Below are positions 8,388 through 47,187 of a stretch of DNA of 64,000 nucleotides, piece after piece; the first letter of the stretch is position 1, and each line of letters starts with the position of its first letter. Position numbers and translations under genes: made by a program. The notes under the pieces were generated by a model. That model saw only the letters and a program-made list of their open reading frames with translations. It made no database searches and had not been told where the DNA came from. The stretch lies in the NCBI GenBank assembly GCA_001939945.1, contig MOEB01000009.1, positions 1 to 64,000 on the forward strand, read 5' to 3'. This DNA is from Aerophototrophica crusticola (GTDB lineage Bacteria; Pseudomonadota; Alphaproteobacteria; Azospirillales; Azospirillaceae).

Positions 8388-8552
8388 GAGGTCTCCCCAT
8401 CGTTCCCCGGCGGGACCATTGGCGGCCCGCCTTCTTTCCACCGATGGTGCGGCCAGGATCACCCAAGCGGAAAGCGCGCGGTGGGGTTAGGCTTTGCCAC
8501 TACCGCGCGCTTGCCGCGATGCGGGAAACCTGTCTGCGGGTTGAGTCGGGGA

Positions 8553-31206: not shown

Positions 31207-33426
31207 TCACACCAGCGACTCCGGCCGGATCGGCAGGTCGCGGATGCGCTTGCCGGTGGCGTGGTAGACGGCGTTGGCGATGGCCGCCGCCGTGCCCACG
31301 TTGGACAGCTCGCCGATGCCCTTGACGCCGATGGGGTTCACCTGCGTGTCCACCTCCGGCACCATGATGATCTCCACCAGCGGCACGTCGGCGTTCACGG
31401 GGATCAGGTACTCCGCGATGTTGGCGTTGACGTAGCGGGCGCGCTTCTCGTCGATCTCCGTCGCCTCGTGTAGCGCCGACCCGATGCCCCAGATCATGCC
31501 GCCCAGATACTGGCTGCGGGCGGTGCGGGGGTTCAGGATGCGACCGCCGGCGAAGGCGCCGGTGATGCGGGGCACGCGGATCTCCTTGGTGCGGGAATGG
31601 ATGCGCACCTCCACGAACTCCGCCCCGAAGGCGAACATGGCGGGCTTGGGCGTGCCACCGCCCCGCTCCGCGCTGCCGCCGCCCATGCGCCCCTCATGCA
31701 GGGCGGCCAAGCCCTTTTCCCCGCCCGGCGGGGCCCATTCCGCGTATTCCTCCAGCGAGCCGACCTTCAGCTTCTCGAACATCCCTGCCAGGGCCTTCGG
31801 GTCGGCGGGCACGGAGCCGCCCAGCCGTTCCCGGATGCGGTCGCAGGCCACCTTGACGGCGGAGCAGGCGCTGGCCGTGGTCATGGAGCCGCCGGCAACC
31901 GGCCCGGGGGGAAGGCGGCTGTCGCCCAGCTCCACCACCACCTTGTCGGCGGGGATGCCCAGGAACTCCGCCGTCGCCTGCCCGATCACCGTATAGGCGC
32001 CGGTGCCCACGTCGTGGGCGGCCACCTGCACCCGGGCGCTGCCGTCGCCACCCAGCCGCACCCGGGCGGCCGACGGCATCATGTTGGTGGGATATGTCGC
32101 CGTGGCGCAGCCCCAGCCCACCAGCCACTCCCCATCCCGCATGGAGCCCGGCCGCGGGTCGCGCCGGGACCAGCCGAACTGGGCCGCCGCCTCGTCATAG
32201 CATTTCATCAGCGACCGGCTGGTATAAGCCGCGCCGTTGATCGGGCTCTTCATGGTGTCGTTGATCCGGCGCAGCTCCACCGGGTCCATGTTGAGCGCCA
32301 CCGCCAGCTCGTCCATGGCACATTCCAGCGCGTACATGTACGGCACCTCGGGCGGGGAGCGCATGAAGCCCGGCGTGTTCCGGTCCGCCTTGACCAGGTT
32401 CACCTTGGTCCAGACGTTGGGGCTGGCATACATCTCCGCCGTGTTCTCGGTGCCGGCCACGTCGTAATTGTCGACCATGGAGGTCAGCTCCCACCCCTCA
32501 TGGCCATAGGCGGTCAGCTTCCCGTCCGGGGTGGCGCCCAGGCGGACACGGTGCCGCGTCTCCGCCCGGTATGTGGTGATGAAGAAGCCCTGGTCGCGGG
32601 CCACCACCAGCTTCACCGGCCGGTTGAACTGCCGCGCCAGGGCGGCGACCAGGGCCGTGCGCTGGGTCGGCGCGCCCTTGGACCCGAAGGCGCCGCCCAC
32701 ATAGGGGTTGATGACATGCACCTTCTCCGGCGGCAGCGCCAACTGCCGGGCGACGCAGTTCTTCAGGGAATAGACGAACTGGCTCGGCTCATAGATGGTC
32801 AGCTCGTCCCCGTTCCAGACGGCGGTGGTGCTGAACAGCTCGATGGGGTTGTGGTGCTGGGTGGGGGTGAAATACTCCGCGTCCACGGTCACGGCCGCGT
32901 CTGCCAACCCCTTGTCGATGTCGCCGACGCCCACATCCTTGTGGGACTTCTTCACCGCGGCCAGCTCCACCGTCTGCGCGCCGGGGGACCGGAAGCCGGC
33001 CACCGGCTCCGCCACCTCATACTCCACCCGCAGCCGGTGCGCGGCCTCCCGCGCCGTCTCATAGCTGTCGGCCAGGACCACGCCGATGATCTGCCCGGCA
33101 TGGTGGATGTCCGGCCCCTGCAACGGCACCAGGGAGGTGGAGACGTAGCCGCCGTCGCCGAAGAAGGCCACCTTCTCCCGCTTCGGCGCGTTCTCATGCG
33201 TGATGATGGCCAGCACGCCGGGGATGCCCTTCGCCTCATCCGCCAGGAAGCGGCGCACCTTGCCCTTGGCGATGGCGCTGGTCACCAGGAAGGCCCAAGC
33301 CGGGTTGCTCACCGGTTCGTCCGCGGCATAGCGGGCGCGGCCGGTGACCTTGGACCGCGCCTCATAGCGCGGGTCCGGCTTGCCCATGTTCTCCATCGGC
33401 GGGGGGACGGGGGGGACGGGCTGCAT
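31207..33426 (-). CDS. paoC: Molybdenum hydroxylase large subunit, PaoC-like aldehyde oxidoreductase
   Basis: A 739-residue catalytic subunit of the xanthine dehydrogenase family, with the two-part aldehyde-oxidase domain: VTGRARYAADEP at the start, then the Moco-binding domain with GGAFGSKGAPTQ and the motif VGTGAYTVIGQATAEFLG. The catalytic Glu is in GVKGIGELSN (about residue 706). Its gene neighbours encode the FAD and [2Fe-2S] subunits, the same order as E. coli paoABC read in reverse. GGAGG lies 6 bp before the start, one base after the FAD subunit stop. Likely oxidises aldehydes in the periplasm. Confidence 0.9.
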   Translation of the reverse strand: MQPVPPVPPPMENMGKPDPRYEARSKVTGRARYAADEPVSNPAWAFLVTSAIAKGKVRRFLADEAKGIPGVLAIITHENAPKREKVAFFGDGGYVSTSLVPLQGPDIHHAGQIIGVVLADSYETAREAAHRLRVEYEVAEPVAGFRSPGAQTVELAAVKKSHKDVGVGDIDKGLADAAVTVDAEYFTPTQHHNPIELFSTTAVWNGDELTIYEPSQFVYSLKNCVARQLALPPEKVHVINPYVGGAFGSKGAPTQRTALVAALARQFNRPVKLVVARDQGFFITTYRAETRHRVRLGATPDGKLTAYGHEGWELTSMVDNYDVAGTENTAEMYASPNVWTKVNLVKADRNTPGFMRSPPEVPYMYALECAMDELAVALNMDPVELRRINDTMKSPINGAAYTSRSLMKCYDEAAAQFGWSRRDPRPGSMRDGEWLVGWGCATATYPTNMMPSAARVRLGGDGSARVQVAAHDVGTGAYTVIGQATAEFLGIPADKVVVELGDSRLPPGPVAGGSMTTASACSAVKVACDRIRERLGGSVPADPKALAGMFEKLKVGSLEEYAEWAPPGGEKGLAALHEGRMGGGSAERGGGTPKPAMFAFGAEFVEVRIHSRTKEIRVPRITGAFAGGRILNPRTARSQYLGGMIWGIGSALHEATEIDEKRARYVNANIAEYLIPVNADVPLVEIIMVPEVDTQVNPIGVKGIGELSNVGTAAAIANAVYHATGKRIRDLPIRPESLV

Positions 33427-33427
33427 C

Positions 33428-34444
33428 TCAGACCTCCATCGCCTTGGCGGCCATCAGGGCACGGACCAGGGTCTGCCGGCCCACGGGCACCTTGAAGTCG
33501 TTATGGCCGTGGGTACGGGCGGCGGCGAACTCCGCCTCCGCCGCCTTCTCCGCCGCGGCCTCGTCCAGCACCTGGCCGCGCAGGGCCTCCTCCGCCTTGC
33601 GGGCGCGCCAGGGCACGGTGGCAACGCCGCCCAGGCCGATGCGCACGTCGCGCACCCGCTCCCCGTCCAGGTCCAGCCCCACGGCGGCGCTGGCCAGGGC
33701 GAAGGCGTAGCTCTCCCGGTCCCGCACCTTCAGGTACAGGGACCGCCTGGCCGCCGCGCTGGCGGGCACGTTGAAGGCGGTGATCAGCTCCCCCGGCACC
33801 AGCGTCGTCTCGATATGCGGCGTGTCCGCCGGCGGCTTGTGCAGTTCGGCGAAGGGGATCACCCGCGGGCCGCGGGGGCCCATCACCTCCACATTCGTGT
33901 CCAGGGCCACCAGGGCCTGGGCCCAGTCGCCGGGGTAGCTGGCGATGCAGGCCTCAGACACGCCCAGGATCGCGTGCAGCCGGTTGTGCCCGTCCAGGGC
34001 GGCGCAGCCGGAGCCCGGTTCGCGCTTGTTGCACTGGCCATAGGCGATCTCCCGGAAATAGGGGCAGCGGGTGCGTTGCAGCACGTTGCCCCCCAGCCGG
34101 GCCATGGTGCGGAGCTGCTGGCTGGCGGCCAGGGCCAAGCTTTGCGCCACCATCGGGAACTGCTGCACCAGCAGCGGGTGCTCCGCCGCGTCCGACATGC
34201 GCACCAGGGCGCCGATGCGCACCCCCTGGGGCGTCTGCTGGATGCGCCCGGCCTCCGCCTTCTCCAGCGGCGTGATGTCCACCAGGGTGGCGGGGCGCAT
34301 CACGTCCAGCTTCATCAGGTCCAGCAGCGTGGTGCCGCCGCCGATGAACTGCACCGGCGACCTGACATGGGCGTCGGACGGGACCGCCGCCATCTGCACG
34401 GCGGCACGGGCATCGGGGGCCTGCTCATAGGTGAAGGGGCGCAT
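33428..34444 (-). CDS. paoB: Molybdenum hydroxylase FAD subunit, PaoB-like
   Basis: A 338-residue FAD-binding subunit of the CoxM/XdhB type. FAD contacts fit [17 protein letters not shown] and [20 protein letters not shown]; cysteines in [19 protein letters not shown] match the [4Fe-4S] cluster typical of PaoB. The C-terminal domain includes [19 protein letters not shown]. Lies between the [2Fe-2S] subunit (3-bp gap) and the large subunit (1-bp gap). Confidence 0.9.
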
Positions 34445-34447
34445 GGC

Positions 34448-35074
34448 TCAGGCCCTCCCGGTCTTGACGACAGCCGCCTGTTTCACGGCGGCGACGATGT
34501 TGGGATAGGCGGCGCAGCGGCACAGGTTCCCGCTCATGAACTCGCGGATCGCCGCCTCGTCCCCGGCCCGGCCCTGCTCCACGCAGGCGGCGGCGGACAT
34601 GATCTGGCCCGGCGTGCAGTAGCCGCACTGGAAGGCGTCATTGTCGATGAAGGCTTGCTGCACCGGGTGCAGGGTCCCGTCCCGGCCCTCCAGCCCCTCG
34701 ATGCTGGTCACCGCCTTGCCCTGGGCCATGACCGCCAGGGTCAGGCAGGACAGGACCGGCTGGCCGTCCAGGTGCACGGTGCAGGCACCGCACTGGCCCT
34801 GGTCGCAGCCCTTCTTGGCCCCGGTCAGGCCGGCATGCTCCCGCAGCGCGTCCAGCAGGGTGGTGCGGATGTCCAGGGGCAGGCGGTAGTCGGTGCCGTT
34901 GACCTTCAGCACCATGTCCACCGGCGCCCGCGGGTCCGGGGCCCGGCCGGGCGCCTGCGCCGATGCCGCCCCGGCCCCCAACACCCCCGCCGCCAGCGGC
35001 ACGGCGGCGGTGGAGGCCGAGCTGGCCAGGAATCCCCGCCGGCTGACACCGGTTGCCTTCGTGTCTCCGCCCAT
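34448..35074 (-). CDS. paoA: Molybdenum hydroxylase [2Fe-2S] subunit with Tat signal, PaoA-like
   Basis: A 208-residue subunit with two [2Fe-2S] clusters. The first uses CDQGQCGAC and a later Cys in VLSC; the second uses CGYCTPG and LCRCAAYPN. The N-terminus has a Tat motif, SRRGFLASS, followed by a hydrophobic stretch ending ASAQA, so the enzyme is exported folded, carrying its partners. The start at 35074 has GGGAGG 5 bp upstream; an ATG 39 bp further up is in frame but lacks a binding site. Confidence 0.92.
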
Positions 35075-35251
35075 CGCCGCCTCCCGCGCTTCTTGGGTCA
35101 CCGCGGTGCACAACCGGGAGAGCGGCGGAACGTTGCAGGGGTTGGTTGCAGATTACGGGCCGCTGATGTTGTGCGGCATATCCGCGGGGGGCTTCCGTGT
35201 CCGGCCCTGGTCAGGGCGGCGGGACGGGCCAACGCCCCGGCCGAGGCACGC

Positions 35252-36142
35252 TCACCCCACCAGCCCCATCGCCTTCGCCCGGTCCAGCAGGTTCTTCACG
35301 CTGCCGGCACTCCAGCGCGGCCGGCCGCGGGGGGTCTTGATCCCCGCCTCTTCCAGCTTCGCCGCCACGCCCAGCAGGGTGGGCTTCTCCAGCGTCTTCC
35401 ACAGCAGGACCACGCGGGCCAGCGCGTCCTCATCCTCCACCGTCCCGGCCCGGCTGGTGGGTTTCAGCAGCTCCTTGTCCGCCAGCCCGTCGCGGGCCAG
35501 CCGGCAGACGGCGCGGATCAGGCTGTCACGGGTCCAGGCCTTGCCGTCCATGGGGCGGGTGCGCTTGCGGTAGTTCAGCAGGCCGACGATCTCGTCCCAG
35601 GTGCGTCCCTCGCCCCGCATCTGCCGGACCTCCGGCAGGAAGTCCACGGCCGCCGCGGCCACGGCGTCGGAGCGGCGGTCCTCCCGCGCGCGCAGCACCT
35701 TGGCGATGGCGTCCGGGTCGCCCCGGCGCAGGCCCGGGTTGCCCCCCACCCGACCCCGGGCGCGGGCAAGGCTGAGGCCGAGCACCGTCCGCTCCCGCGC
35801 CGCCGTGCGCTCCATGCGGGCCAGCGCCTCGACCAGGGCCAGGGTGGCGGCCGCGTCGGCGGCCCCCGTGTCCACCGGTTCGCCCAGGCTGCGGAAGCCC
35901 ACACCCTTACCGCCCAACTCCGCCAGCAACCCGGCCAGGTGGGGGACGGAGCGGGCCACCCGGTCCAGCCGCGCCACCACCAGCACGTCACCGGCACGCA
36001 GGGCGGCCATGGCCTTCTTCCATTCCCCCCGGTTGGCGCCGCTGTCCTGGTAGACCCGGGCGCAGCCGGCGGCCTTCAGGGCACCGACCTGCGCTTCCGC
36101 CTTTTCCCCCGGGGCAGGGCGGGCATAGCCGATCAGGGGCAT
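35252..36142 (-). CDS. Serine-recombinase-like protein lacking the catalytic serine
   Basis: A 296-residue protein with the resolvase N-terminal fold and a recombinase-type helical region behind it. The usual YARVS start with the nucleophilic Ser reads IGYARPAPGEKA here, so the serine is replaced by Ala. The catalytic arginine region VVARLDRVARSV is kept, as is ERTVLGLSLARARGRVGG. The C-terminal half (LIRAVCRLARDGLADKELL and KTPRGRPRWSAGSVKNLLDRAK) looks like DNA-binding helices. No inverted repeats or target duplications flank it. It may be a DNA-binding protein derived from a recombinase rather than an active enzyme. Confidence 0.75.
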   Translation of the reverse strand: MPLIGYARPAPGEKAEAQVGALKAAGCARVYQDSGANRGEWKKAMAALRAGDVLVVARLDRVARSVPHLAGLLAELGGKGVGFRSLGEPVDTGAADAAATLALVEALARMERTAARERTVLGLSLARARGRVGGNPGLRRGDPDAIAKVLRAREDRRSDAVAAAAVDFLPEVRQMRGEGRTWDEIVGLLNYRKRTRPMDGKAWTRDSLIRAVCRLARDGLADKELLKPTSRAGTVEDEDALARVVLLWKTLEKPTLLGVAAKLEEAGIKTPRGRPRWSAGSVKNLLDRAKAMGLVG

Positions 36143-36794
36143 GGGATACCTCAGGGCTGGGAAGGCGCCACACTAGCGCCGCCTTCCAGAATCCGGCAAG
36201 GCTGTTAAGGTAGGTTTTCTTGCCGAACCCGGCCTGTCACCACCGCGCTTCCCGCGGCGCAATATCGATTTGTCAGTGCCCGGCCGGTGGACGCCGCCAG
36301 GGCAGGCCGTCCAGACCCAACTACCGGCGTATGCAGCTTGCCCAGCCATCAGGCGGTTAAGTGCCTGTTTTTGCACCCGTGCCACCAAAATAGGCGCACG
36401 TGCACGAAGCAGTTGCCCCCGAAAGCCTTATGGGGCCTAAGGATTTGGCTTGGCACACAACTTGCGAAGTACGCTGCACATGCGAACGAACGCTGCGGAG
36501 CCGGTCGGGCAATGGGTCGGACCCGCTTCCCGGAACCATCCGGGGCCGCGGCGCTGGCGGGGAGCCAATGAATGGCAGCAAAGACGGTCATGGTCGTGAT
36601 CCGGCGGGTGGTGCGGACCATGGAGGTCCCAGGCCGGCCGGGCCGCGGCGCGACCCAGGCGCTGGGCGTGGCGGGCCGGGGCGGCAAGGCTTCGGCGTCA
36701 AAAGGTGGGAAGCCGAAGGGGGATTTCGGCTTCGTCCCGGCCCGGGTGGCCTGGGCCGGGCCCTTCCGGTAATCAGAAACGGCGAAGGAGGATG
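36143..36794. other. Gene-poor stretch of 652 bp
   Basis: Between the recombinase-like gene and ridA. It contains an AT-richer patch (36200-36480) with a sigma-54-type promoter at 36450-36465. Downstream of the promoter is a leader of about 320 bp before ridA; a 66-codon basic ORF at 36572-36772 is open but not convincing. No RNA gene is recognised. Confidence 0.6.
36450..36465 (+). promoter_or_regulatory. Sigma-54 (RpoN) -24/-12 promoter upstream of ridA
   Basis: TTGGCACACAACTTGC has GG and GC exactly 10 bp apart, matching the TGGCAC-N5-TTGC consensus almost fully. Transcription would start near 36477 and read into ridA at 36795. Nothing on the plus strand lies between that could be its target except a doubtful small ORF. 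RpoN control usually signals nitrogen regulation, which fits an amine-oxidising module. Confidence 0.65.
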
Positions 36795-37292
36795 ATGGTG
36801 AAGATGCGACGCCTTGCGGCGGGCCTGTTGCTGGCGGCGGTGCCCGCCCTGGCCCACGCGGACGCGATCAAGCGGGTCGATGTCCCCAATTTCCCGATCT
36901 CGGCGGCGGTGATCGTCCCCGGCGGGTCGGACCTGGTCTTCCTCAGCGGGCAGGTGCCCTCGGTCAAGGACCCCAACGCGCCGAAGGGCAGCATCGAGGC
37001 CTTTGGCGACACCGAGGCCCAGTCCATGGACGTGTTCGGCAAGATCGAGGCCACGCTGAAGGCCCAGGGCCTGGGCATGGGCGACGTGGTGCTGATGCAT
37101 GTCTACCTGGTGGGTGACCCCGGCAAGGGCGGCACCATGGATTTCGGCGGCATGATGAACGCCTACCGCCGCTTCTTCGGCACGGCGGAACAGCCCAACA
37201 AGCCCGCCCGCTCCACCGTCCAGGTCGCGGGCCTGGCCGCCCCCGGCATGCTGGTGGAGATCGAGGTGGTCGCGGCCAAGCCGCGCCAGTGA
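36795..37292 (+). CDS. Exported RidA (YjgF/UK114) family protein
   Basis: A 165-residue protein with a signal peptide (LAAGLLLAAVPALAHA) and a RidA domain from about residue 25. Key residues for imine/enamine hydrolysis are present: the active-site Arg in PARSTVQVAGL and the Glu in LVEIEVVA. FLSGQVP and MGDVVLMHVYL are other family segments. Most RidA proteins are cytoplasmic; this one is predicted periplasmic. Just upstream of a TonB receptor, amine oxidase and cytochrome c on the same strand, where it could hydrolyse the imine product. Start 36795 chosen for spacing from AAGGAGG; 36792 and 36804 are alternatives. Confidence 0.85.
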   Translation: MVKMRRLAAGLLLAAVPALAHADAIKRVDVPNFPISAAVIVPGGSDLVFLSGQVPSVKDPNAPKGSIEAFGDTEAQSMDVFGKIEATLKAQGLGMGDVVLMHVYLVGDPGKGGTMDFGGMMNAYRRFFGTAEQPNKPARSTVQVAGLAAPGMLVEIEVVAAKPRQ

Positions 37293-37358
37293 CGGGCTGA
37301 GGGACCAGGGAAGCCCGCGCAGGAGACGCGCGGGAACGGAGCAGTGAGGAGAGGGCCA

Positions 37359-37433
37359 GGCGAAGCGCAGGAGGACCGGGACGGTCGGGAAAGCTCCCGT
37401 CGGGTAGGCCGCCACAGGTCCCCGCGCTTCGCC
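37359..37433. repeat. Inverted repeat between ridA and the TonB receptor
   Basis: GGCGAAGCGC...GGACC (37359-37377) pairs with GGTCCCCGCGCTTCGCC (37417-37433), enclosing a second small palindrome around GGTCGGGAAAGCTCCCGTC. A long hairpin is possible. It could attenuate or separate ridA from the receptor, or be another interspersed repeat. Confidence 0.45.
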
Positions 37434-37511
37434 CAACAAACAAGAAACCAGGGATGGACGGCAGTCCGAGGAGTCGCGCCCCAACTACAATCGTGAACAG
37501 GGGACGACATA

Positions 37512-39959
37512 ATGAAAAAGTCTGGGACGCTTCATGACACCCAAGTGACCATCCGCCGGGCCATGGCGCTGGGCCTGCTCTGCACCACCGCGCTGGGCGC
37601 GGCCGGCACGGCGTCGGCGCAGGAGGCGCTGGACGAGATCATCGTGACCGGCACCCGCGTGGCGAACCGCACCGCCACGGAATCCTTGGCCCCCATCGAC
37701 GTGCTGGGCGGCGAGGACTTGGCCCGCCAGGCCTTCACGGACACCAACGACGTGCTGCGCACGCTGGTGCCCTCCTTCAACGTGAGCCGCAACGGCATCT
37801 CCGACGGCTCCACCTTCGTCCGGCCGCCCACCCTGCGCGGCCTGCCCCCCGACCAGACGCTGGTGCTGGTGAACGGCAAGCGGCGCCACCGCTCCGCCCT
37901 GGTGCAGCTCAGCGGCGGCGCCCTGGCGGCCGGCGCCCAGGCCCCGGACCTGGCGCAGATCCCGGCCATCGCCATCAAACAGGTGGAGGTGCTGCGCGAC
38001 GGCGCCTCGGCCCAGTACGGGTCCGACGCCATCGCCGGCGTGATCAACTTCCAGCTCAAGGACGCGGCGGAGGGCGGGTCCGCCAGCATCCAGTACGGCT
38101 CCACCTATGAGGGTGACGGCGACAACGTGAAGGCGGAGGCCAACATCGGCCTACCCTTGGGCGACACCGGCTTCTTCAACATCTCCGCGGAGGCGACGGA
38201 CAGCGACCCCACCAACCGCGGCGTGCAGGACCCGCGGGCCCCAGCGTCCCTGACCAAGCTGGCCATGAACTGGGGCGACCCGGATGCCAAGGCGGCGCGG
38301 GTCTTCGTGAACTCCGGCATCGACCTGACGGAGACCACCTCCATCTTCCTGTACGGCAACTACGGCGCCAGCGAGTCCGACGGCAGCTTCTATTACCGGC
38401 CGCCCACCCTGGAACACGCGGTGAACGGCCCCACCCTGCCGGTCGCGGGCGACCCGAACGGCTTCCGCTTCGTGGAGTTCTTCCCGGGCGGCTTCACCCC
38501 CCGCTTCTACGGCGACGTGAAGGACGCCAGCCTGACCGGCGGCTTCCGCCAAGAACTGTCCATGGGGCTGACCTACAGCCTCAGCGCCTCCTTCGGGCGC
38601 AGCCAGATCGACTATGAGCTGAAGAACACGGTCAACCCGTCCCTCGGCCCCGCCTCCCCCACCGAGTTCTATGTGGGCCGGCTGGTGGAGGAGGACACCG
38701 GCCTGAACGCCGACTTCACCTATCCCATCGAGGTCGGGCTGGCCAGCCCGCTGAACCTGGCCTTCGGCGCGGAGTGGCGGCAGGAGCTGTACGAGATCGG
38801 CCCGGGCGAGCCGGACAGCTACCGCGTCGGCCCCTATGCCACCTTCACCGACTTCCGCACCGGCCTGCCGGCGGCCCTGCCCATCGGCTCCAACGGCTAT
38901 CCCGGCTTCCGGCCGGAGGATTCCGGGGAGTTCACCCGCGACAACTACGCCGTCTATGTGGACACGGAGACGGACCTGACGGAGGCGCTGACCCTGGGCG
39001 TCGCCGCCCGGTATGAGGATTTCGAGGCCTTCGGCGACACCTTCAACTGGAAGGTCAGCGGCCGGTACGAGCTGACGGACTTCCTGGCCGTCCGGTCCAG
39101 CGTCAACACCGGCTTCCGGGCGCCCACGCCCGGCCAGTCGCAGACATCCTCCATCCAGACCTTCTTCCCGGCCGGCAGCTCCGACCCGGTGGCCCGCGGC
39201 ACCTACCCGGCCACCAACGTCGTGGCCCGCTATTTCGGGGCCCAGGCCCTGTCGCCGGAGGAAAGCTTCAACATCGCCGGCGGCGCGGTGCTGGACCTGC
39301 CGGGCGGCATCACCGCCACCCTCGACTACTACAACATCAAGGTGGAGGACCGCATCGCCCTGTCCGGCGACTTCACCCCCACCGCGGCGGACCGGGCGGC
39401 CCTGGCGGCCCTGGGCGTGCCGGGGGCCAACACGCTGGGGGCGGTGAACTACTTCACCAACGCCTTCGACACCCGCACCCAGGGCGTGGATCTGGTGGTG
39501 CGTGGCAGCGTGGACATCGGCGACGGCGAGTTGGACCTGACCGCCGCCGGCAACTACAACCGCACCAAGGTCACCAAGCGCGACACCAGCGTCATCGACG
39601 ACACGCGCAAGGCCGACCTGGAGAAGCAGTTGCCCAAGTGGCGCGGCAACTTCACCGGCGTCTACACGCTGGACGCCATCTCCGTCCTGGCGCGGGCCAG
39701 CTACTACGGCAAGTTCACGGACACGGCCAACTACGCCAAGACCTTCGGGGCCGAGTGGCTGGTGGACCTGGAGGCGACCTATACCATCGCCGAGGCCTAC
39801 AGCATCTCCGTCGGCGTGCAGAACCTGTTCGACAACTACCCGGACAAGGTGGATGCCCTGCCCGGCGGCGGCTACGCCGTGGGCCAGGTTTATCCCGACA
39901 CCTCGCCGCTCGGTTACAATGGCGGGATGTATTACATCCGACTTGGCGTGACCTTCTGA
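37512..39959 (+). CDS. TonB-dependent receptor of the amine-oxidation cluster
   Basis: An 815-residue outer-membrane receptor. Signal peptide ending ASAQ at about residue 36, TonB box ALDEIIVTGTRV, plug with VLRTLVPSFNVSR, LRGLPPDQTLVLVNGKRRH, IKQVEVLRDGASAQYGSDAI and AGVINFQLK, and a barrel ending YYIRLGVTF with the normal terminal Phe. GGGGACGAC precedes the ATG. It lies between ridA and the amine oxidase and probably imports the amine substrate; ligand not predictable. Confidence 0.92.
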   Translation: MKKSGTLHDTQVTIRRAMALGLLCTTALGAAGTASAQEALDEIIVTGTRVANRTATESLAPIDVLGGEDLARQAFTDTNDVLRTLVPSFNVSRNGISDGSTFVRPPTLRGLPPDQTLVLVNGKRRHRSALVQLSGGALAAGAQAPDLAQIPAIAIKQVEVLRDGASAQYGSDAIAGVINFQLKDAAEGGSASIQYGSTYEGDGDNVKAEANIGLPLGDTGFFNISAEATDSDPTNRGVQDPRAPASLTKLAMNWGDPDAKAARVFVNSGIDLTETTSIFLYGNYGASESDGSFYYRPPTLEHAVNGPTLPVAGDPNGFRFVEFFPGGFTPRFYGDVKDASLTGGFRQELSMGLTYSLSASFGRSQIDYELKNTVNPSLGPASPTEFYVGRLVEEDTGLNADFTYPIEVGLASPLNLAFGAEWRQELYEIGPGEPDSYRVGPYATFTDFRTGLPAALPIGSNGYPGFRPEDSGEFTRDNYAVYVDTETDLTEALTLGVAARYEDFEAFGDTFNWKVSGRYELTDFLAVRSSVNTGFRAPTPGQSQTSSIQTFFPAGSSDPVARGTYPATNVVARYFGAQALSPEESFNIAGGAVLDLPGGITATLDYYNIKVEDRIALSGDFTPTAADRAALAALGVPGANTLGAVNYFTNAFDTRTQGVDLVVRGSVDIGDGELDLTAAGNYNRTKVTKRDTSVIDDTRKADLEKQLPKWRGNFTGVYTLDAISVLARASYYGKFTDTANYAKTFGAEWLVDLEATYTIAEAYSISVGVQNLFDNYPDKVDALPGGGYAVGQVYPDTSPLGYNGGMYYIRLGVTF

Positions 39960-40039
39960 GGCTGACCCCGACCGGCCGGGGCGCCCCGCCCCGGCCGGCT
40001 GCCTGCTTCGCGCACGTGCCGGAAACGAGGTCGATAGTG

Positions 40040-41635
40040 ATGGTCGAGGACGCTTCGAGATACAGCCGCCGTCGGCTGCTTTCCATGATCGGCGCCACGG
40101 CGGGCGCCTCCGTCATGTACCAGGCGGCATCCAGCCTGGGCTTCGCCGCCGAATCCCCCTACAGGGGCCCCGTGAAGCTGGAGGGCTCGCCCAAGGGCGC
40201 CTCCGTCCTGATCCTGGGCGCCGGCGTGGCCGGGCTGGCCGCGGCGCTGGAGCTGACGAAGGCCGGCTACAAGGTCCAGGTGCTGGAATACCGGGAAAAG
40301 CCCGGCGGCCGGTCCTGGACCCTGCGCGGCGGCGACCGCTATGCCGAGCTGGGCGGCGCCACCCAGGAGGTGGGGTTCGACCAGGGCCAGTACCTGAACC
40401 CCGGCCCCTGGCGCATCCCCTACCACCACCATGCGGTGCTGGACTATTGCCACCGGCTGGGCGTGGCGCTGGAGCCCTTCACCCAGGTCAACTACAACGC
40501 CCTTGTCCACGCGCGGGACGCGTTCGGCGGCAAGCCCCAGCGCTACCGCACCGTGGCCGCCGACTTCCAGGGGCAGGTGGCGGAGCTGCTGGCCAAGGTG
40601 ACCAACAAGGGCGCCCTGGACGGCGCCGTCACCAAGGAGGACCAGGAGATCCTGCTGGAGGCCCTGCGGGAGTGGGGCGCTCTGGAGAAGGACCTGTCCT
40701 TCCGCCCGGGGGAGGCGTGCAGCCAACGCCGCGGCTATGTGAAGGACCCCGGCGGCGGCCTGTCCGGCGTGCCGGAGCATTCCAAGCCCGTGGCCCTGGG
40801 CGATTTGCTGAAGTCCGGCCTGTGGCGCAGCATCGGCATCGGCGCCGGCTATGAGTTCCAGACCACCCTGTTCCAGCCGGTGGGCGGCATGGACCAGATC
40901 CCCCGCGCCATGGCGAAGGCCCTGGGCGAGGGGGTCATCACCTACAACGCCAAGGTCACCGCCATCCGCCAGACCGGCGGCGGCGTCACCGTCACCTGGG
41001 CCGACGGGGCCAAGCCCGGCACCACCCGCACGGCCAGCGCCGACTGGTGCCTGTGCACCATCCCCCTGTCCGTGCTGAGCCAGATCGACAAGGACGTCAG
41101 CCCGGCCATGGACGCGGCCATCAACGCCGTGCCCTACCACGCCTCGGTCAAGGTGGGCCTGCAGTTCAAGCGCCGCTTCTGGGAGCAGGACGAGGGCATC
41201 TATGGCGGCATCAGCTACACCGACCTGCCCATCACCCTGATCAGCTACCCGGCCTTCGGCTATGGCAGCCCGGGCAAGGGCGTGCTGCTGGGCGCCTATA
41301 GCTGGGGCCCCTACGCCTATGAGTTCACGGCCCTGCCGCCGGAGGAGCGGGTGCGGCGCGCCGTGGAGTTCGGGGCGGAGATCCACCCCCAGTACAAGGC
41401 GGAGTTCGAGACGGGCGTGGCCGTGGGCTGGCACCGGGTGCCCTGGACCCTGGGCTGCTTCGGCGCCTGGACGGAGGAGTCGCGGGCCGAGCACTACAAG
41501 AACCTGTGCGCCATCGACGGGCGCCTGCTGCTGGCGGGGGAGCATGCCTCCTACCTGCCGGCCTGGCAGGAGGGCGCCATCCTGTCCGCCCTGGACGCCG
41601 TCACCCGCCTGCACCAGCGGGTCGTGTCCCTGTAG
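40040..41635 (+). CDS. Tat-exported flavin amine oxidase/dehydrogenase
   Basis: A 531-residue FAD enzyme of the monoamine/L-amino-acid oxidase family. The N-terminus has a twin-arginine motif (SRRRLLSM) and hydrophobic stretch. The dinucleotide-binding motif is VLILGAGVAGLAAALELTKAG, with PGGRSWTLRGG and YAELGGATQEV next; the C-terminal FAD contact is RLLLAGEHASYLPAWQEGAI. It should deaminate an amine or amino acid to an imine in the periplasm. The next gene, 11 bp on, is a small c-type cytochrome, an arrangement that suggests the enzyme is a dehydrogenase using cytochrome c rather than oxygen. GTG at 40037 is an alternative start. Confidence 0.9.
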   Translation: MVEDASRYSRRRLLSMIGATAGASVMYQAASSLGFAAESPYRGPVKLEGSPKGASVLILGAGVAGLAAALELTKAGYKVQVLEYREKPGGRSWTLRGGDRYAELGGATQEVGFDQGQYLNPGPWRIPYHHHAVLDYCHRLGVALEPFTQVNYNALVHARDAFGGKPQRYRTVAADFQGQVAELLAKVTNKGALDGAVTKEDQEILLEALREWGALEKDLSFRPGEACSQRRGYVKDPGGGLSGVPEHSKPVALGDLLKSGLWRSIGIGAGYEFQTTLFQPVGGMDQIPRAMAKALGEGVITYNAKVTAIRQTGGGVTVTWADGAKPGTTRTASADWCLCTIPLSVLSQIDKDVSPAMDAAINAVPYHASVKVGLQFKRRFWEQDEGIYGGISYTDLPITLISYPAFGYGSPGKGVLLGAYSWGPYAYEFTALPPEERVRRAVEFGAEIHPQYKAEFETGVAVGWHRVPWTLGCFGAWTEESRAEHYKNLCAIDGRLLLAGEHASYLPAWQEGAILSALDAVTRLHQRVVSL

Positions 41636-41646
41636 GGAGAAAAGCC

Positions 41647-42057
41647 ATGAGACTGAGCATCACACTGGCACTCGCCGGTGCCCTGCTGGCCGTCGGCACC
41701 GCCGGGGCCAACGACACCAAGTCCGGCGGCAGCTTCGCCAGCCCCAACCGCTTCGTCCAGGACGACGGGGAGGCGCTGTACAAGTCCATCTGCCAGGGCT
41801 GCCACATGCCCGACGGCAAGGGGGCCCAGGGGGCCGGCGCCTATCCCGCCCTGGCCACCAACCCGAACCTGGAGGCGGGCGCCTATCCGGTGACGCTGGT
41901 CGTGAACGGCAACCGGGCCATGCCGGGCTTCGGCGGCGTGCTGGACGACGCCCAGGTGGCCGCCGTGGTCAACTATGTCCGCACCCATTTCGGCAACAGC
42001 TACGAAGACCCGGTGCAGCCGGCCGAGGTCCATGATGCCCGGCCTGCCAAGCACTGA
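41647..42057 (+). CDS. Periplasmic c-type cytochrome, partner of the amine oxidase
   Basis: A 136-residue exported monohaem cytochrome c. Signal peptide to about residue 21; haem motif CQGCH at 49-53; axial Met92 in RAMPGFGG; and the closing helix VAAVVNYVRTHFG. A strong AGGGAGA ribosome site precedes the start, 11 bp after the amine oxidase. It likely accepts electrons from that enzyme and passes them to the respiratory chain. Confidence 0.92.
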   Translation: MRLSITLALAGALLAVGTAGANDTKSGGSFASPNRFVQDDGEALYKSICQGCHMPDGKGAQGAGAYPALATNPNLEAGAYPVTLVVNGNRAMPGFGGVLDDAQVAAVVNYVRTHFGNSYEDPVQPAEVHDARPAKH

Positions 42058-42598
42058 CCCCGGCAGCCTGCGCTTCCGCAAGGCCGTCGCCGGGGACGTG
42101 CCGGCCCTGCGGGACCTGATCGCCCTGTCGGCGCGGGGGTTGAGCGCCGGCCACTACACCCCGGCCCAGGTGGAAGGCGCCCTGGCCGGGGCCTTCGGCG
42201 TGGACACGGGCCTCATCCGCGACGGCACCTATTGGCTGGCGGAGCAGGGCGGCCGGTTCCTGGCCTGCGGCGGGTGGAGCCGGCAGCGCGCCCTTTATGG
42301 CAGCGACGCCCTGCATGGGGACGGGCCTGCCGGCTTCCGTGTCCCCGGCCAGGACCCGGCACTGGTCCGGGCCGTGTTCGTCCACCCCGACGCCGCCCGC
42401 CGCGGCATCGGCCGCTGCCTGGTGGGCATCGCCGAGCTGGAAGCCCGCGCCAACGGCTTCACCACCCTGGAGCTGATGGCCACCCTGCCCGGCGTCCCCC
42501 TCTACGTCGCCCTGGGCTACCACCCCCAGGGCGAGGCCACCCACCCCCTGCCCGACGGCAGCCCGCTGCCCCTGGTGCCGATGCGGAAGGCGTTCTGA
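42035..42598 (+). CDS. GNAT acetyltransferase
   Basis: A 187-residue protein whose start overlaps the cytochrome gene end by 23 bp, so probably in the same operon. It has LRFRKAVAGDVPALRDLI at the N-terminus, VRAVFVHPDAARRGIGRCLVGIAE as the acetyl-CoA motif and VPLYVALGYHPQGE near the end. The open frame extends further up without homology. It may acetylate an amine or amino acid connected with the cluster; substrate unknown. Confidence 0.85.
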   Translation: MPGLPSTDPGSLRFRKAVAGDVPALRDLIALSARGLSAGHYTPAQVEGALAGAFGVDTGLIRDGTYWLAEQGGRFLACGGWSRQRALYGSDALHGDGPAGFRVPGQDPALVRAVFVHPDAARRGIGRCLVGIAELEARANGFTTLELMATLPGVPLYVALGYHPQGEATHPLPDGSPLPLVPMRKAF

Positions 42599-42609
42599 GG
42601 GTTGCCCCC

Positions 42610-44394
42610 CTACTCCGCCGCCCGCACCCCCGTTCCGCGCAGCGCGTCGGCCAAAGCCGCGGCGTCGTTGCCGACGATGATGTCCAGCCCGCCGGGCCGG
42701 GACACCACCCCGCGCACGCCGGCCTTGCGCAGGGCCGCCGGGTCGGCCTTGCCCGCGTCGGCCAGGACCACCCGCAGCCGGGTGACCGCGAAGGCCGCCA
42801 GGGACCGGATGTTGCCAGCCCCGCCCAACGCCTCTGCCAGGGGGCCGGGCTGCAACGCGGACGCGCCAGCCTTCGGGGATGCGGCAGCGGCGGAAGGGGC
42901 CGCCGGCGCGCTGCCGGGGCTGACCAGTTCCGGGTCGTTGGCCGCGGCGGCGGTCTGCAGATATTCCTGCATCTCCGTCTTCAGGTTTTCCGACAGGGTG
43001 CCGAACACGGCCTGGACGCTGTCACCCACCCTCAGCACGCCGGTGGCGCCCATGGCCCGCAGCCGCGCCTCGTCCACCCGCGGCGGCTCCGCCACCACGA
43101 TGCGCAGCCGGGTGATGCAGGCGTCCAGGTTGCGGATGTTGCCCCGCCCGCCGAAGGCCAGCACCAGGTCCCGGGCCCGGTCCGTGCCGGTGCCGGCGGC
43201 CCCCTCGGCCCCTTCCGCGCCCGGGGCCTCGCGGCCCGGCGTCTTCAGGTTCAGCCAGCGGATGGCCCCGCGGAAGACGGCGTAATAGACCACCGCCGTC
43301 ACCGGCCCCAACACCAGCACCAGCCACCATTTCTGGGAATAGGGGCTGAGCACGTTGAACAGCACGAAGTCGATGCCGCCCTGGGAGAAGGTGAACCCCA
43401 TGTGCGCCCCCAGCGCGTTCATCACGAACTGGCAGGCCGCCGCCAGCACGGCATGGAACAGGTAGAGGACGGGGGCGAGGAACAGGAAGGAGAACTCGAT
43501 GGGCTCGGTGATGCCCGTCAGGAAGCTGGTCAGGGCGGCGGAGATCATGATGCCGCCCACCCGGGCGCGGTTCTCCGGCCGGGCCGCGTGCCACATGGCG
43601 ATGGCCGCCGCGGGCAGGCCGAACATCTTGAACAGGAAGGCGCCGGCCAGGATGCCGGCCGTGGGGTCGCCGGCGAAGTAGCGGGCGATGTCGCCATGCA
43701 CCACCTGCCCGTCCGGGGCGGTGAAGCTGCCGATCTCGAAGAAGAAGGGCACGTTCCAGATGTGGTGCAGGCCGAAGGGGATCAGCAGCCGCTCCACGAA
43801 GCCATAGATGGACACCGCCGTGCGCGTGTCGCTGACCGCAGCCCAGTGGGAGAAGGCGTCGATCCCGCCCTGGATGGGCGGCCAGATGACCGACAGGGCC
43901 ACGCCCAGCAGGATGGCTGACAGCGCCGTGACGATGGGCACGAAGCGCTTGCCGGCAAAGAAGCCCAGGTAGGCGGGCAGGGCGATCTTGTAATACCGGT
44001 TGAACATGAAGGCTGCCAGCCCGCCCGCCAGGATGCCGCCGAAGACCCCCGTCTCCATGGACTTGATGCCCATGATGGTCTTGGGCTCCAGGCCCCAGAC
44101 CCCGGCCATGACGCCCAGGGTGGCCAGCATCACCAGGTAGCCGATGGTGGCGGCGATGGCGGACACGCCGTCGTTCCGGGTGAACCCCAGGGCCACGCCG
44201 ATGGCGAAGATCAGCGGCAGGTTGCCGAAGATCACGTCGCCCGCGCTCTTCATCATCAGCGACAGCAGTGCCGGCATCCAACTGAACTCGGCCGCGCCGA
44301 TGCCCAGCAGCAGGCCTGCCACCGGCAGCACGGCGACGGGGAGCATCAGCGACTTGCCGATGGTCTGGAGGAAGGCGAAGGGATTTAGCCGCAT
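42610..44394 (-). CDS. nagE: PTS permease EIIC with two EIIB domains, N-acetylglucosamine type
   Basis: A 594-residue phosphotransferase permease. The EIIC domain fills residues 1 to about 375 ([47 protein letters not shown]). The first EIIB domain has the phospho-accepting Cys426 in [11 protein letters not shown] second EIIB-like domain (about 515-590) reads [12 protein letters not shown], with Ala at the Cys position, so it cannot carry phosphate. EIIA, HPr and EI are supplied by the divergent gene. AGGAGG lies before the ATG at 44394. Sugar specificity (GlcNAc rather than glucose) is inferred from family resemblance. Confidence 0.9.
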
Positions 44395-44631
44395 GGTTGC
44401 CTCCTGCTGGGGCACCGTCCGGCCTCGCCGCGCCCTGTCCCTGGCGCGCGGCGGCGGGGCCGGGGCGGACACGGCGCCCCTTTGTGGTTTCTCCCCCGCC
44501 GGCAGCTTTTTGACCCGGTGTCAGGTTCCGGGGCGCCGGCTTGGGTGTTCCCCCACCAGCAAGAACATGGGCCGGCCCCGAAGGGTCCGGCGTCGACGCG
44601 CTGGAATAAAGACGCGAAGGGAGGATACGCC

Positions 44632-47187
44632 ATGACCCGCCTGCCCCTTTCCGCCCCCCTGGCCGGCTGGGCCCTGCCCCTGGACGAGGTGCCGGACCCC
44701 GCCTTCGCCCAGCGCCTGGTCGGCGACGGCATCGCCATCGACCCCACGGTGGGGGAGCTGCGCAGCCCCTGCGACGGGGTGGTGCTGTCCGTCCACCGCG
44801 CCCGCCACGCCTGCACCCTCCGCGCCGCCAACGGGGCGGAGGTGCTGCTGCATGTCGGGGTGGACACGGTGAAGCTGGGGGGTGAGGGGTTCACGCCCCG
44901 TGTCACCGACGGGCAGGCGGTGAAGGCCGGCGACCGGCTGATCTCCTTCGACCTGGACCTGCTGGGGCAGAAGGCGCGCAGCCTGGTCAGCATGATGGTG
45001 GTGACGAACGGCTTCTCCGTCGCCGACCTGGTCACCGGGCGGGAGGTGGCCGCGGGTGACGCCGTGATGGCCGTGACGGGCGGGGAGGCCGCGGTTGACC
45101 CGACCCCCGCCCCCGCGGCGGCGGCGGGGGAGACGGTGACCCGCGCCGTGCGCCTGCCCCTGGCCCAGGGCCTGCACGCCCGCCCCGCCGCCGCCCTGGC
45201 CGCGGCGGCGAAGCGGCATCCGGGCCCCGTCCAACTGCGCTGCAAGGGCCGGGACGCCAACGCCAAGAGCGTCACCGCCCTGATGGGGCTGGGCACCGCC
45301 CTGGGCGACACGCTGGAGATCGCCGTGTCCGGCCCGGGCGCCGCGGACGTGGCGGACCGGCTGGTGGACCTAGTCCAGGGAGGCCTGGGCGACCCCGTCG
45401 TCGCCATCCCCGACACGCCTGCCGGCGGCGGGGCCCCCATGGCCGCCATCGCCAAGCCCGCGGCCGAGGAACCTCTGGGCCCGCCCTTCGCGGCGGGGGA
45501 GGAGGTGCTGCTGAAGGGCACCATCGCCGTGCCCGGCATCGCCGTCGGCGCCGCCGTGCGCCTGTTCCGGGAGGCGGTGAGCTTCCCCGAGCAGGGAAGC
45601 GGCCCGGAGGTGGAGGAGCGCCGCCTGCGCGACGCCCTGGCCCGGGTGGGTACCGACCTGGAGGCCGCGCAGGCCCAGGGCGGCGGCCATGGCGCCATCT
45701 TCGCCGCCCACCGGGAACTGCTGGCCGACCCCGACCTGGCGGATGAGTCCATGGCCCAGCTCCGCCAGGGCCGCAGCGCGGAGGCGGCGTGGAGCACCAC
45801 CATGCGGCGCCAGGCCGACAGGCTGGCCGGGATGGCCGACGCGCGGATGGCGGAGAGGGCGGCGGACATGCGCGACCTGGAGGCCCAGGTGCTGGACGTG
45901 CTGTCCGGCCGCGGCCCCCGCCTGCGGCTGGCGGACGTGCCGCCGGGCAGCGTCGTCCTGGCGGGGGAGGTGCTGCCGTCCGACCTGGCCGGGGTGCAAC
46001 CGGGGCGGCTGGGCGGCCTGTGCATGGCCCAGGGGGGGCCCACCAGCCACGCCGTGATCCTGGCGGCGGGGCTGGGCGTGCCCACGGTGGTGGCCGTGGG
46101 CGGGCAGTTGGGCCGGGTGCCGGAGGGGGCACCCCTGATCCTGGACGGCAACCGCGGGCAGCTCACCGTCTTCCCGCCGGAGGCGGAGATGCAGGCGACG
46201 CGGGAGGCGGCGCGGGTGCGGGAGGCGCGGCGGGTGGAGAACCGCCGCTCCGCCCACCTGGACTGCGTCATGGCCGACGGCACAAGGATCGAGGTGTTCG
46301 CCAACCTTGGCAAGGCGAAGGACGCCGCCCCGGCGGTGGCGGAGGGGGCGGAAGGCTGCGGCCTGCTGCGCACGGAGTTCCTGTTCCTGGAACGCCAGTC
46401 CGCCCCGACGGAGGACGAACAGCTGGAGCAGTACCAGGCCATAGCCGACGCGTTGGGCGGCCGCCCCCTGGTCATCCGCACCCTGGACGTGGGCGGCGAC
46501 AAGCCCCTGCCCTACCTGCCCCTGCCGCCGGAGGAGAACCCGGTGCTGGGCCTGCGCGGCGTCCGCGTCGGCCTGCGCCAGCCGGAACTGCTGCGCGGCC
46601 AGATCCGCGCCATCCTGCGGGTCCGCCCGGCGGGGGCCGCGCGCATCATGGTGCCGATGATCGCCAGCCCGTGGGAGCTGCGCGCCGTGCGGGACATGGT
46701 GGCGGAGGAGATGCAGCGCCTGGGCCGGGCCGAGCCCATCGAGGTGGGTGCCATGATCGAGGTGCCGGCCGCGGCCGTCGCCGCCGACCAGATCGCCGCG
46801 GTGGCGGACTTCCTGTCCGTCGGCACCAACGACCTGACCCAGTATGTCCTGGCCATGGACCGCGGCAACCCGCATGTGGCCGCCCAGCTCGACGCCCTGC
46901 ACCCCGGGGTGCTGCGCATGGTGCGGCTGGCCGTGGTGGGTGCCGACCAGCACCGGCGGCCGGTGGCTGTGTGCGGCGGCAGCGCCAGCGACCCCCTGGC
47001 CGCCCCCATCCTGCTGGGCCTTGGCGTGACGGAGCTGTCGGCCACCCCCGCCGTCATCGCCGACCTGAAGGCCTTCATCCGCACCCTGACCCTGGAGGAA
47101 TGCCGCGCCGTGGCGGAGACGGCCCTGAACCTGGACTCCGCCGACGCGGTGCGCCGGATGGTGGCGGAGCGCTGGCCGGGGTTGTGA
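44632..47187 (+). CDS. nagF: PTS EIIA-HPr-EI fusion protein
   Basis: An 851-residue multiphosphoryl protein. EIIA(Glc) type domain with His74 in VLLHVGVDTVKL; HPr domain with His182 in AQGLHARPAAAL; EI from about residue 295 with KGTIAVPGIAVGAA, the active His473 in GGPTSHAVILA, and the PEP-binding domain with GLLRTEFLFLERQSAPTEDEQ and FLSVGTNDLTQYVLAMDR. It carries phosphate from PEP to the NagE-like permease transcribed divergently. GGGAGG precedes the ATG at 44632; the frame is open upstream to 44482 without homology. Confidence 0.94.
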   Translation: MTRLPLSAPLAGWALPLDEVPDPAFAQRLVGDGIAIDPTVGELRSPCDGVVLSVHRARHACTLRAANGAEVLLHVGVDTVKLGGEGFTPRVTDGQAVKAGDRLISFDLDLLGQKARSLVSMMVVTNGFSVADLVTGREVAAGDAVMAVTGGEAAVDPTPAPAAAAGETVTRAVRLPLAQGLHARPAAALAAAAKRHPGPVQLRCKGRDANAKSVTALMGLGTALGDTLEIAVSGPGAADVADRLVDLVQGGLGDPVVAIPDTPAGGGAPMAAIAKPAAEEPLGPPFAAGEEVLLKGTIAVPGIAVGAAVRLFREAVSFPEQGSGPEVEERRLRDALARVGTDLEAAQAQGGGHGAIFAAHRELLADPDLADESMAQLRQGRSAEAAWSTTMRRQADRLAGMADARMAERAADMRDLEAQVLDVLSGRGPRLRLADVPPGSVVLAGEVLPSDLAGVQPGRLGGLCMAQGGPTSHAVILAAGLGVPTVVAVGGQLGRVPEGAPLILDGNRGQLTVFPPEAEMQATREAARVREARRVENRRSAHLDCVMADGTRIEVFANLGKAKDAAPAVAEGAEGCGLLRTEFLFLERQSAPTEDEQLEQYQAIADALGGRPLVIRTLDVGGDKPLPYLPLPPEENPVLGLRGVRVGLRQPELLRGQIRAILRVRPAGAARIMVPMIASPWELRAVRDMVAEEMQRLGRAEPIEVGAMIEVPAAAVAADQIAAVADFLSVGTNDLTQYVLAMDRGNPHVAAQLDALHPGVLRMVRLAVVGADQHRRPVAVCGGSASDPLAAPILLGLGVTELSATPAVIADLKAFIRTLTLEECRAVAETALNLDSADAVRRMVAERWPGL

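Follow-up and report, generated by a model that had tools for sequence, protein, structure and literature searches.

Introduction

The closest described relative of the locus reported here is the lao-cccA-ridA cluster of Gluconacetobacter diazotrophicus PAL5 (GDI2456-2454), whose lao product, an L-amino acid oxidase, carries a twin-arginine translocation (Tat) signal, and for which co-transcription and a need in the conversion of tryptophan (Trp) to indole-pyruvate are reported (PMC5053998). The authors of that study put forward the hypothesis that the lao, cccA and ridA products act jointly in making indole-3-acetic acid (IAA) from Trp, and noted that the cluster is conserved in Caulobacter and Xanthomonas. 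Mutants with an insertion in lao lose IAA production from Trp, and in those defective in cytochrome c maturation 5% of normal IAA is left (PMC5053998, the latter citing Lee 2004). In this study, we analysed a window of 64,000 nucleotides (the whole stretch, positions 1 to 64,000 of contig MOEB01000009.1) from the 6.06 Mb genome of Aerophototrophica crusticola, and found in it a block encoding a Rid-family protein, a TonB-dependent receptor, a flavoenzyme and a cytochrome c, which we read, at a probability of roughly 0.68, as a periplasmic L-amino-acid:cytochrome c dehydrogenase module.

Three further groups of described proteins bear on this block. In Chlamydomonas, the periplasmic LAO1 makes H2O2, is induced by nitrogen limitation and has a putative RidA partner, LAO2 (PMC10805672). 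Among flavoenzymes related to NicA2, a Tat signal together with an adjacent cytochrome gene predicted cytochrome-using dehydrogenases, in a survey that started from matches to NicA2 (PMC12224317). Rid3 proteins retain the Arg and Glu of the Rid family and have Ile in place of Tyr, and the genes for RidA, and sometimes Rid3, cluster with genes for flavin adenine dinucleotide (FAD) amine oxidases (PMC4433059). Two Rid3 proteins, PFL_1385 and PSPTO_3006, act in vitro on imines from snake-venom L-amino acid oxidase; when either is present, less semicarbazone forms from the imines of L-Leu, Gln, Phe, Met and His (PMC5619798).

Results

The block lies on one strand, and its parts are as follows.

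36451..36466, plus strand: sigma-54 -24/-12 promoter-like element TGGCACACAACTTGCG, 344 nt 5' of the Rid start, score 13.5/14
36572..36772, plus strand: small open reading frame (ORF) of 66 aa, in the same place in 11/11 congeners, with a common N-terminal motif
36795..37292, plus strand: predicted exported Rid-family imine hydrolase, Rid3-like (PF01042), N-terminus MVKMRRLAAGLLLAAVPALAHA
37512..39959, plus strand: TonB-dependent outer-membrane receptor (PF00593/PF07715)
40040..41635, plus strand: FAD enzyme with Tat-type export signal, from the L-amino-acid oxidase branch and probably a dehydrogenase (PF01593), N-terminus SRRRLLSMIGATAG
41647..42057, plus strand: single-haem exported cytochrome c (PF13442/PF00034), CQGCH, Met92 the likely axial ligand
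42035..42598, plus strand: GNAT N-acetyltransferase (PF13508), overlapping the end of the cytochrome gene and accompanying the block in its own genus

The genes for Rid, receptor, flavoenzyme and cytochrome are all intact open frames in the window, in one order, with 11 bp between the flavoenzyme stop and the cytochrome start and with several in-frame candidates for the Rid start within 36792-36804. A first-pass annotation, made by a model from the letters alone, had proposed an exported Rid, a TonB receptor, a Tat flavoenzyme and a cytochrome c in this order; the open frames and the Pfam matches agree with it, and its proposal that flavoenzyme, cytochrome c and imine hydrolase form one exported redox module is supported as far as sequence goes. 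Its view that an exported Rid coupled to a flavin amine enzyme was an undescribed system must be given up, the pairing being already in print for G. diazotrophicus (PMC5053998) and for the algal LAO1/LAO2 (PMC10805672).

Like lao-cccA-ridA, the block combines a Tat-type, L-amino acid oxidase-like flavoenzyme with nearby cytochrome c and Rid genes. Unlike it, Rid stands first and a receptor lies between Rid and the flavoenzyme, whereas the order in PMC5053998 is lao-cccA-ridA and a receptor is not mentioned there; the window further has the sigma-54 element, the small gene and the gene for the GNAT protein. Proteins were compared through the peptides encoded by the published G. diazotrophicus primers and through the published description. 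Both lao peptides agree with the window flavoenzyme in 4/7 residues at matching positions (YPSHGYF, aa 404, against YPAFGYG, 403; QVIHPNY, 447, against AEIHPQY, 446), as does one cccA peptide with the cytochrome in 5/6 residues (NYVRSH, 108, against NYVRTH, 109). The ridA reverse primer peptide agrees in 3/6 residues close to the matching position, and the peptides of the two forward primers, for cccA and for ridA, are uninformative, with 2/6 residues shared elsewhere in the protein. The core of the block is thus a known cluster type, and what is new here is a block-conserved receptor, a conserved -24/-12 element 5' of Rid, a previously unlisted, genus-specific small gene, and Rid lipoproteins in 6/11 congeners.

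Relatives were collected in a survey of 82 genomes of the family (Rid match at E <= 1e-15, flavoenzyme match at E <= 1e-30) and in a wider profile search of genome contigs with an alignment of ten flavoenzymes, which confirmed at least 587 relatives. The 80 best of these loci were all examined, and this sample leans to close relatives because the best-scoring ones were taken. Export signals were judged by reading N-termini, and the twin-arginine motif was defined loosely.

Among the best 60 of its 103 solved relatives, the flavoenzyme is closest to the Rhodococcus opacus L-amino acid oxidase 2jae (E 1.3e-94; 180/471 aligned residues identical), followed by tetrapod-type (ancestor, E 4e-48) and snake-type L-amino acid oxidases, with monoamine oxidase at 6e-15 and putrescine oxidase at 1e-12. 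Chain positions 83 (Arg) and 370 (Tyr) of 2jae, which we take to be the substrate carboxylate ligands Arg84 and Tyr371 (a literature search for this assignment gave no match), align to R125 and Y420 of the window protein. In an alignment of ten relatives, with identity down to 40%, R125 is invariant and Y420 is kept in at least 90%. By its nearest solved relatives and by the presumed ligand pair, the flavoenzyme is placed in the L-amino-acid oxidase branch, and an L-amino acid is therefore a likelier substrate than the amine of the first-pass annotation, which we reject as first choice. The Tat-type N-terminus proposed there is present, and the loosely defined motif recurs in 76/80 loci.

The cytochrome has one haem motif, and Met92 is invariant in 8 aligned relatives. 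Its gene lies directly 3' of the flavoenzyme in 79/80 loci, the exception being L173. Read from the sequences, the window thus has the combination from which dehydrogenases were predicted in PMC12224317, a Tat-type flavoenzyme with an adjacent exported cytochrome c. To apply that rule here is an extrapolation to another branch, because the survey was NicA2-based and NicA2 is not among the matches listed for our enzyme. By analogy, the enzyme would be a dehydrogenase rather than an oxidase, with the cytochrome as its electron acceptor. The systems of PMC12224317, NicA2/Pnao-CycN included, share with the block a Tat-exported flavoenzyme and an adjacent Sec-exported cytochrome c; they differ in being NicA2 matches, seemingly of another branch, and the text of that study has no word beginning with 'Rid'.

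The best solved matches of the Rid protein are the Rid3 proteins PFL1385 (E 1.8e-43) and PSPTO3006 (E 1.6e-40). R139, E155 and E157 are invariant across 14 sequences, and I35 is kept in at least 90%; by our pairing of alignment columns to RidA residues, these would be the Rid3 hallmarks, and the protein is accordingly assigned by sequence to the Rid3 subfamily, where the first-pass annotation had named RidA. Imine hydrolysis by the window Rid may be expected from the activity of its relatives, which likewise keep Arg and Glu (PMC5619798, PMC4433059). PFL_1385 and PSPTO_3006 were assayed with snake-venom oxidase and DauA and not with a co-encoded exported partner, and neither 'signal' nor 'periplasm' occurs in PMC5619798.

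Export of the Rid, also proposed earlier, has good support from sequence. The window protein has a signal-peptide-like N-terminus, and a hydrophobic export-type N-terminus was found in 44/44 relatives evaluated (of 45 Rid genes). Six of 11 congeners (L038-L043) carry lipobox sequences (LTAC, LTGC, LSGC) on Rid, and the others have ordinary signal-peptide-like N-termini. That orthologues carry export signals of two kinds argues for selection on the location outside the cytoplasm. The Rid of L165, one of three Pseudomonas loci with the gene order discussed here, is no nearer to PFL1385 than the window Rid, so that an origin of PFL1385 in such an operon could not be shown.

Gene order, the conservation of which had been proposed as a check, is conserved. 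Within the family, a Rid match was found in 28/82 genomes and a flavoenzyme match in 23/82, and all 11 genomes of the window's own genus have both. Rid, receptor, flavoenzyme, cytochrome and GNAT lie on one contig in 9/11 of these; in G072 and G074 the block is cut by contig ends, with pieces compatible with the genus order, and G072 has no close receptor (best match 41%). The same order, with no GNAT match, was found in one genome each of two other genera (G054 and G076). In a Nitrospirillum-type genus, all 7 genomes have the order Rid-flavoenzyme-cytochrome-receptor around a flavoenzyme of 44-45% identity; two carry a further flavoenzyme-cytochrome pair (59%), and in three a flavoenzyme of 38-40%, with Rid and without a cytochrome match, lies divergent to a receptor. 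One flavoenzyme copy of this genus, L052 (G064:C1:653773-655338), has one internal TGA stop and is perhaps a decaying paralogue or a sequencing error. In one further genus, G015 and G045 have flavoenzyme-cytochrome-Rid without receptor, and six other genomes have a Rid match of 41-48% with no flavoenzyme match nearby. The recurrence of the block in other genomes therefore makes it more than a chance arrangement.

Beyond the family, relatives occur in Xanthomonas, Pseudomonas, Methylobacterium, Mesorhizobium, Bradyrhizobium, Dyella, Solimonas, Novosphingobium and an acidobacterial metagenome-assembled genome. Rid follows immediately after the cytochrome, as in lao-cccA-ridA, in 41/80 loci, and lies anywhere in the stretch examined in 45/80; restricted to the 78 loci that extend at least 1500 bp further, these figures become 40 and 44. 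Novosphingobium sediminicola (L172) has two tandem flavoenzyme-like genes, 53% and 63% identical to the query, flanked on both sides by a cytochrome match.

In the 64 kb, TGGCACN5TTGC is matched exactly once, by the element TGGCACACAACTTGC at 36451-36465, against an expectation of 0.18. A single exact match is weak taken alone, because at least one is found in 16/100 shuffles. When sites were scored against the sigma-54 -24/-12 consensus, which we take to be TGGCACRNNNNTTGCW, the best site within 600 nt 5' of Rid reached at least 13.0/14 in 13/15 loci tested, at 172-427 nt from Rid, whereas 0.86% of up to 5000 random 600-mers (from the loci examined and the window) reach 13.0. The 13 loci belong to three genera, namely that of the 11 congeners, in two of which the contig ends before the receptor is reached, and those of G054 and of G076, and are not independent events because the genomes are related. 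Scores of 10.0 and 11.0 were obtained for two Nitrospirillum-type loci of different gene order; the remaining five such loci lie outside the 15. A comparable site in 13/15 loci makes the window element credible, and the sigma-54 promoter of the first-pass annotation is thus seen as a recurrent element. By itself such an element does not imply nitrogen control, and a tie to nitrogen supply would be a guess.

A second -24/-12-like or dyad element (e.g. TGGCACCAAACGTGCT in L038) lies ~172 nt 5' of the main site, at near-constant distance, in eight congeners (L035, L036, L038-L043), and could be a tandem promoter or an activator site. By eye, no activator sites were found in the upstream alignment, and no Rfam family reached the gathering score within 34000-45000. 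In two genera an HWE histidine kinase gene lies beside the block, at L035:11933-14491 in one and, on the other side of the block, at L044:9101-11260 in the second; of the remaining flanking proteins of these two loci (three each scanned), one is an exchanger, one is a transglutaminase-like protease, and two gave no match. There is no HWE histidine kinase among the eight window neighbours scanned.

Between promoter and Rid, an ORF of 66-77 aa starting with MA is present in 11/11 congeners (the window and L034-L043). Nine of them share MAKHAVRVAVRN.V(R/K)VV and, near the end, PELLSGVSWDEGRKVWLVHP, each as such or in a close variant; the window and G066 share only the first motif, in looser form. 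The ratio of nonsynonymous to synonymous substitution rates (dN/dS) is 0.12-0.51 in 36/36 pairs among the nine. Of the 19 pairs that include the window or G066, 16 give values of 0.26-0.73 and 3 gave no computable value, which makes the window's own ORF the weaker case. In six congeners, third codon positions vary at 41/70 sites versus 20/70 for first and 18/70 for second positions (chi-square p 2e-5, without correction for relatedness). The substitution pattern thus marks the small gene as under purifying selection, and a purely noncoding leader between promoter and Rid is rejected by dN/dS and third-position variation. A sequence search of the 82 family genomes recovered the ORF in 9, all of the own genus, those of the window and G066 being too diverged for detection, and three members scanned, the window's included, had no Pfam match. 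A leader peptide and a partner protein are both possible products.

A receptor alignable to that of the window over at least 600 residues was found in 15/80 loci (one from the own genus), versus 0/80 for a control, the receptor-like ORF at 5505-8462 of the same window. In the family, 65 places match the receptor at E <= 1e-80 (up to 12 candidates scored per genome); the 19 top-scoring places all adjoin a flavoenzyme, and 23/65 lie within 10 kb of one. The link between receptor and block is thus real in these genera. Nine other receptor places in the own genome match over about the first 230 residues only, and the solved matches of the receptor cover its N-terminal part and name no useful ligand; its cargo, and its role as importer of the substrate, can be guessed at. 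In a search of the open-licence literature for a receptor with a lao-cccA-ridA-type cluster, PMC5053998 had no use of 'TonB-dependent'.

To the left, a resolvase-domain recombinase gene adjoins the block (35252-36142, minus strand), followed by a three-gene molybdopterin dehydrogenase of aldehyde/xanthine type (31207-35113, minus strand), whose iron-sulphur subunit has the twin-arginine sequence SRRGFL near its start. To the right lies a divergent phosphotransferase system with an EIIC-EIIB permease and a fused EIIA-HPr-EI protein (42610-47187).

Discussion

Gene content, gene order, export signals, conserved residues and a recurrent promoter element are established by sequence, and they suggest the following function. 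The Tat-exported FAD enzyme would oxidise an L-amino acid to a 2-imino acid by hydride removal at the alpha-carbon, and the co-encoded cytochrome c, replacing O2, would carry the electrons to the respiratory chain. The reactive imine would be hydrolysed by the exported Rid to a 2-oxo acid and ammonia. Expression, that of the small genus-specific gene included, would be driven by the sigma-54 promoter, and the receptor would import a related ligand. To name the amino acid that is oxidised would be to guess.

Several observations weigh against this scheme. Rid is not obligatory, because 35/80 loci have no Rid gene within the stretch examined and L173, with 9 kb examined on each side, has neither Rid nor a matching cytochrome. 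The 7 Nitrospirillum-type genomes have a closer flavoenzyme (65-68%) with a cytochrome at which no Rid or receptor match is found. The receptor need not be cluster-specific, because some of its relatives, at 53-54% identity, as well as a partial match at 56%, are found away from any flavoenzyme cluster. No NicA2-named entry is among the best 60 of 103 solved relatives of the flavoenzyme, 2jae itself carries the name "oxidase", and the open-licence literature yielded no assay of the purified flavoenzyme or a close relative.

The alternative that survives best, though we consider it unlikely, is a periplasmic L-amino-acid oxidase with O2 as acceptor and H2O2 as product, in which case the cytochrome would serve another purpose, e.g. 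peroxide removal. The nearest solved relatives (among the best 60 of 103) are indeed named L-amino acid oxidases, and Chlamydomonas LAO1, also with a putative RidA partner, makes H2O2 (PMC10805672); this system resembles the block in extracytoplasmic L-amino acid deamination for nitrogen, but it is eukaryotic, and no cytochrome partner is mentioned in the available text. The cytochrome c gene directly downstream in 79/80 loci argues against free use of O2, as do the Tat signal and adjacent cytochrome of predicted dehydrogenases in other branches (PMC12224317) and the loss of 95% of the product in cytochrome c maturation mutants of G. diazotrophicus (PMC5053998).

An amine rather than amino acid dehydrogenase, with receptor-fed amine uptake as in the first-pass annotation, is improbable. 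Pfam gives only the broad flavin amine oxidoreductase family, and sequence alone cannot tell the substrate, but the L-amino acid oxidases rank far ahead of monoamine and putrescine oxidases, and the Arg and Tyr presumed to bind the carboxylate are kept. Least probable of all is a chiefly auxin-forming route that, as in G. diazotrophicus, would lead from L-Trp by way of indole-3-pyruvate to IAA. That system has the same three protein families and 3/6 primer peptides at matching positions, but IAA is not our first choice because no Azospirillum-type indolepyruvate decarboxylase in the genome passes the cut-off (TIGR03394, best 95.2 versus 554.5 bits, 14 control genomes likewise only below it). 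The pair of genes is also present in genera, Alteromonas and Marisediminitalea among them, that to our knowledge are not plant partners; other routes from indole-pyruvate are possible.

In summary, we return to the periplasmic L-amino-acid:cytochrome c dehydrogenase module as the preferred reading. We hold as an evenly balanced proposition the wider one that this widespread "L-amino acid oxidase" branch consists of periplasmic L-amino-acid:cytochrome c dehydrogenases, which would respire extracellular amino acids peroxide-free, often with a dedicated exported imine hydrolase, and which in the own genus would be run by sigma-54 together with their own TonB receptor and a new small protein. If this is true, many exported proteobacterial 'L-amino acid oxidases' would be dehydrogenases under a wrong name, delivering electrons to the respiratory chain, with the toxic imine handled in the periplasm by a co-encoded Rid. 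Extracellular amino acid use would then be tied to a sigma-54 promoter, and the Rid3 subfamily would gain a natural, directly testable source of substrate. The receptor of the block may serve as a lead to the real substrate.

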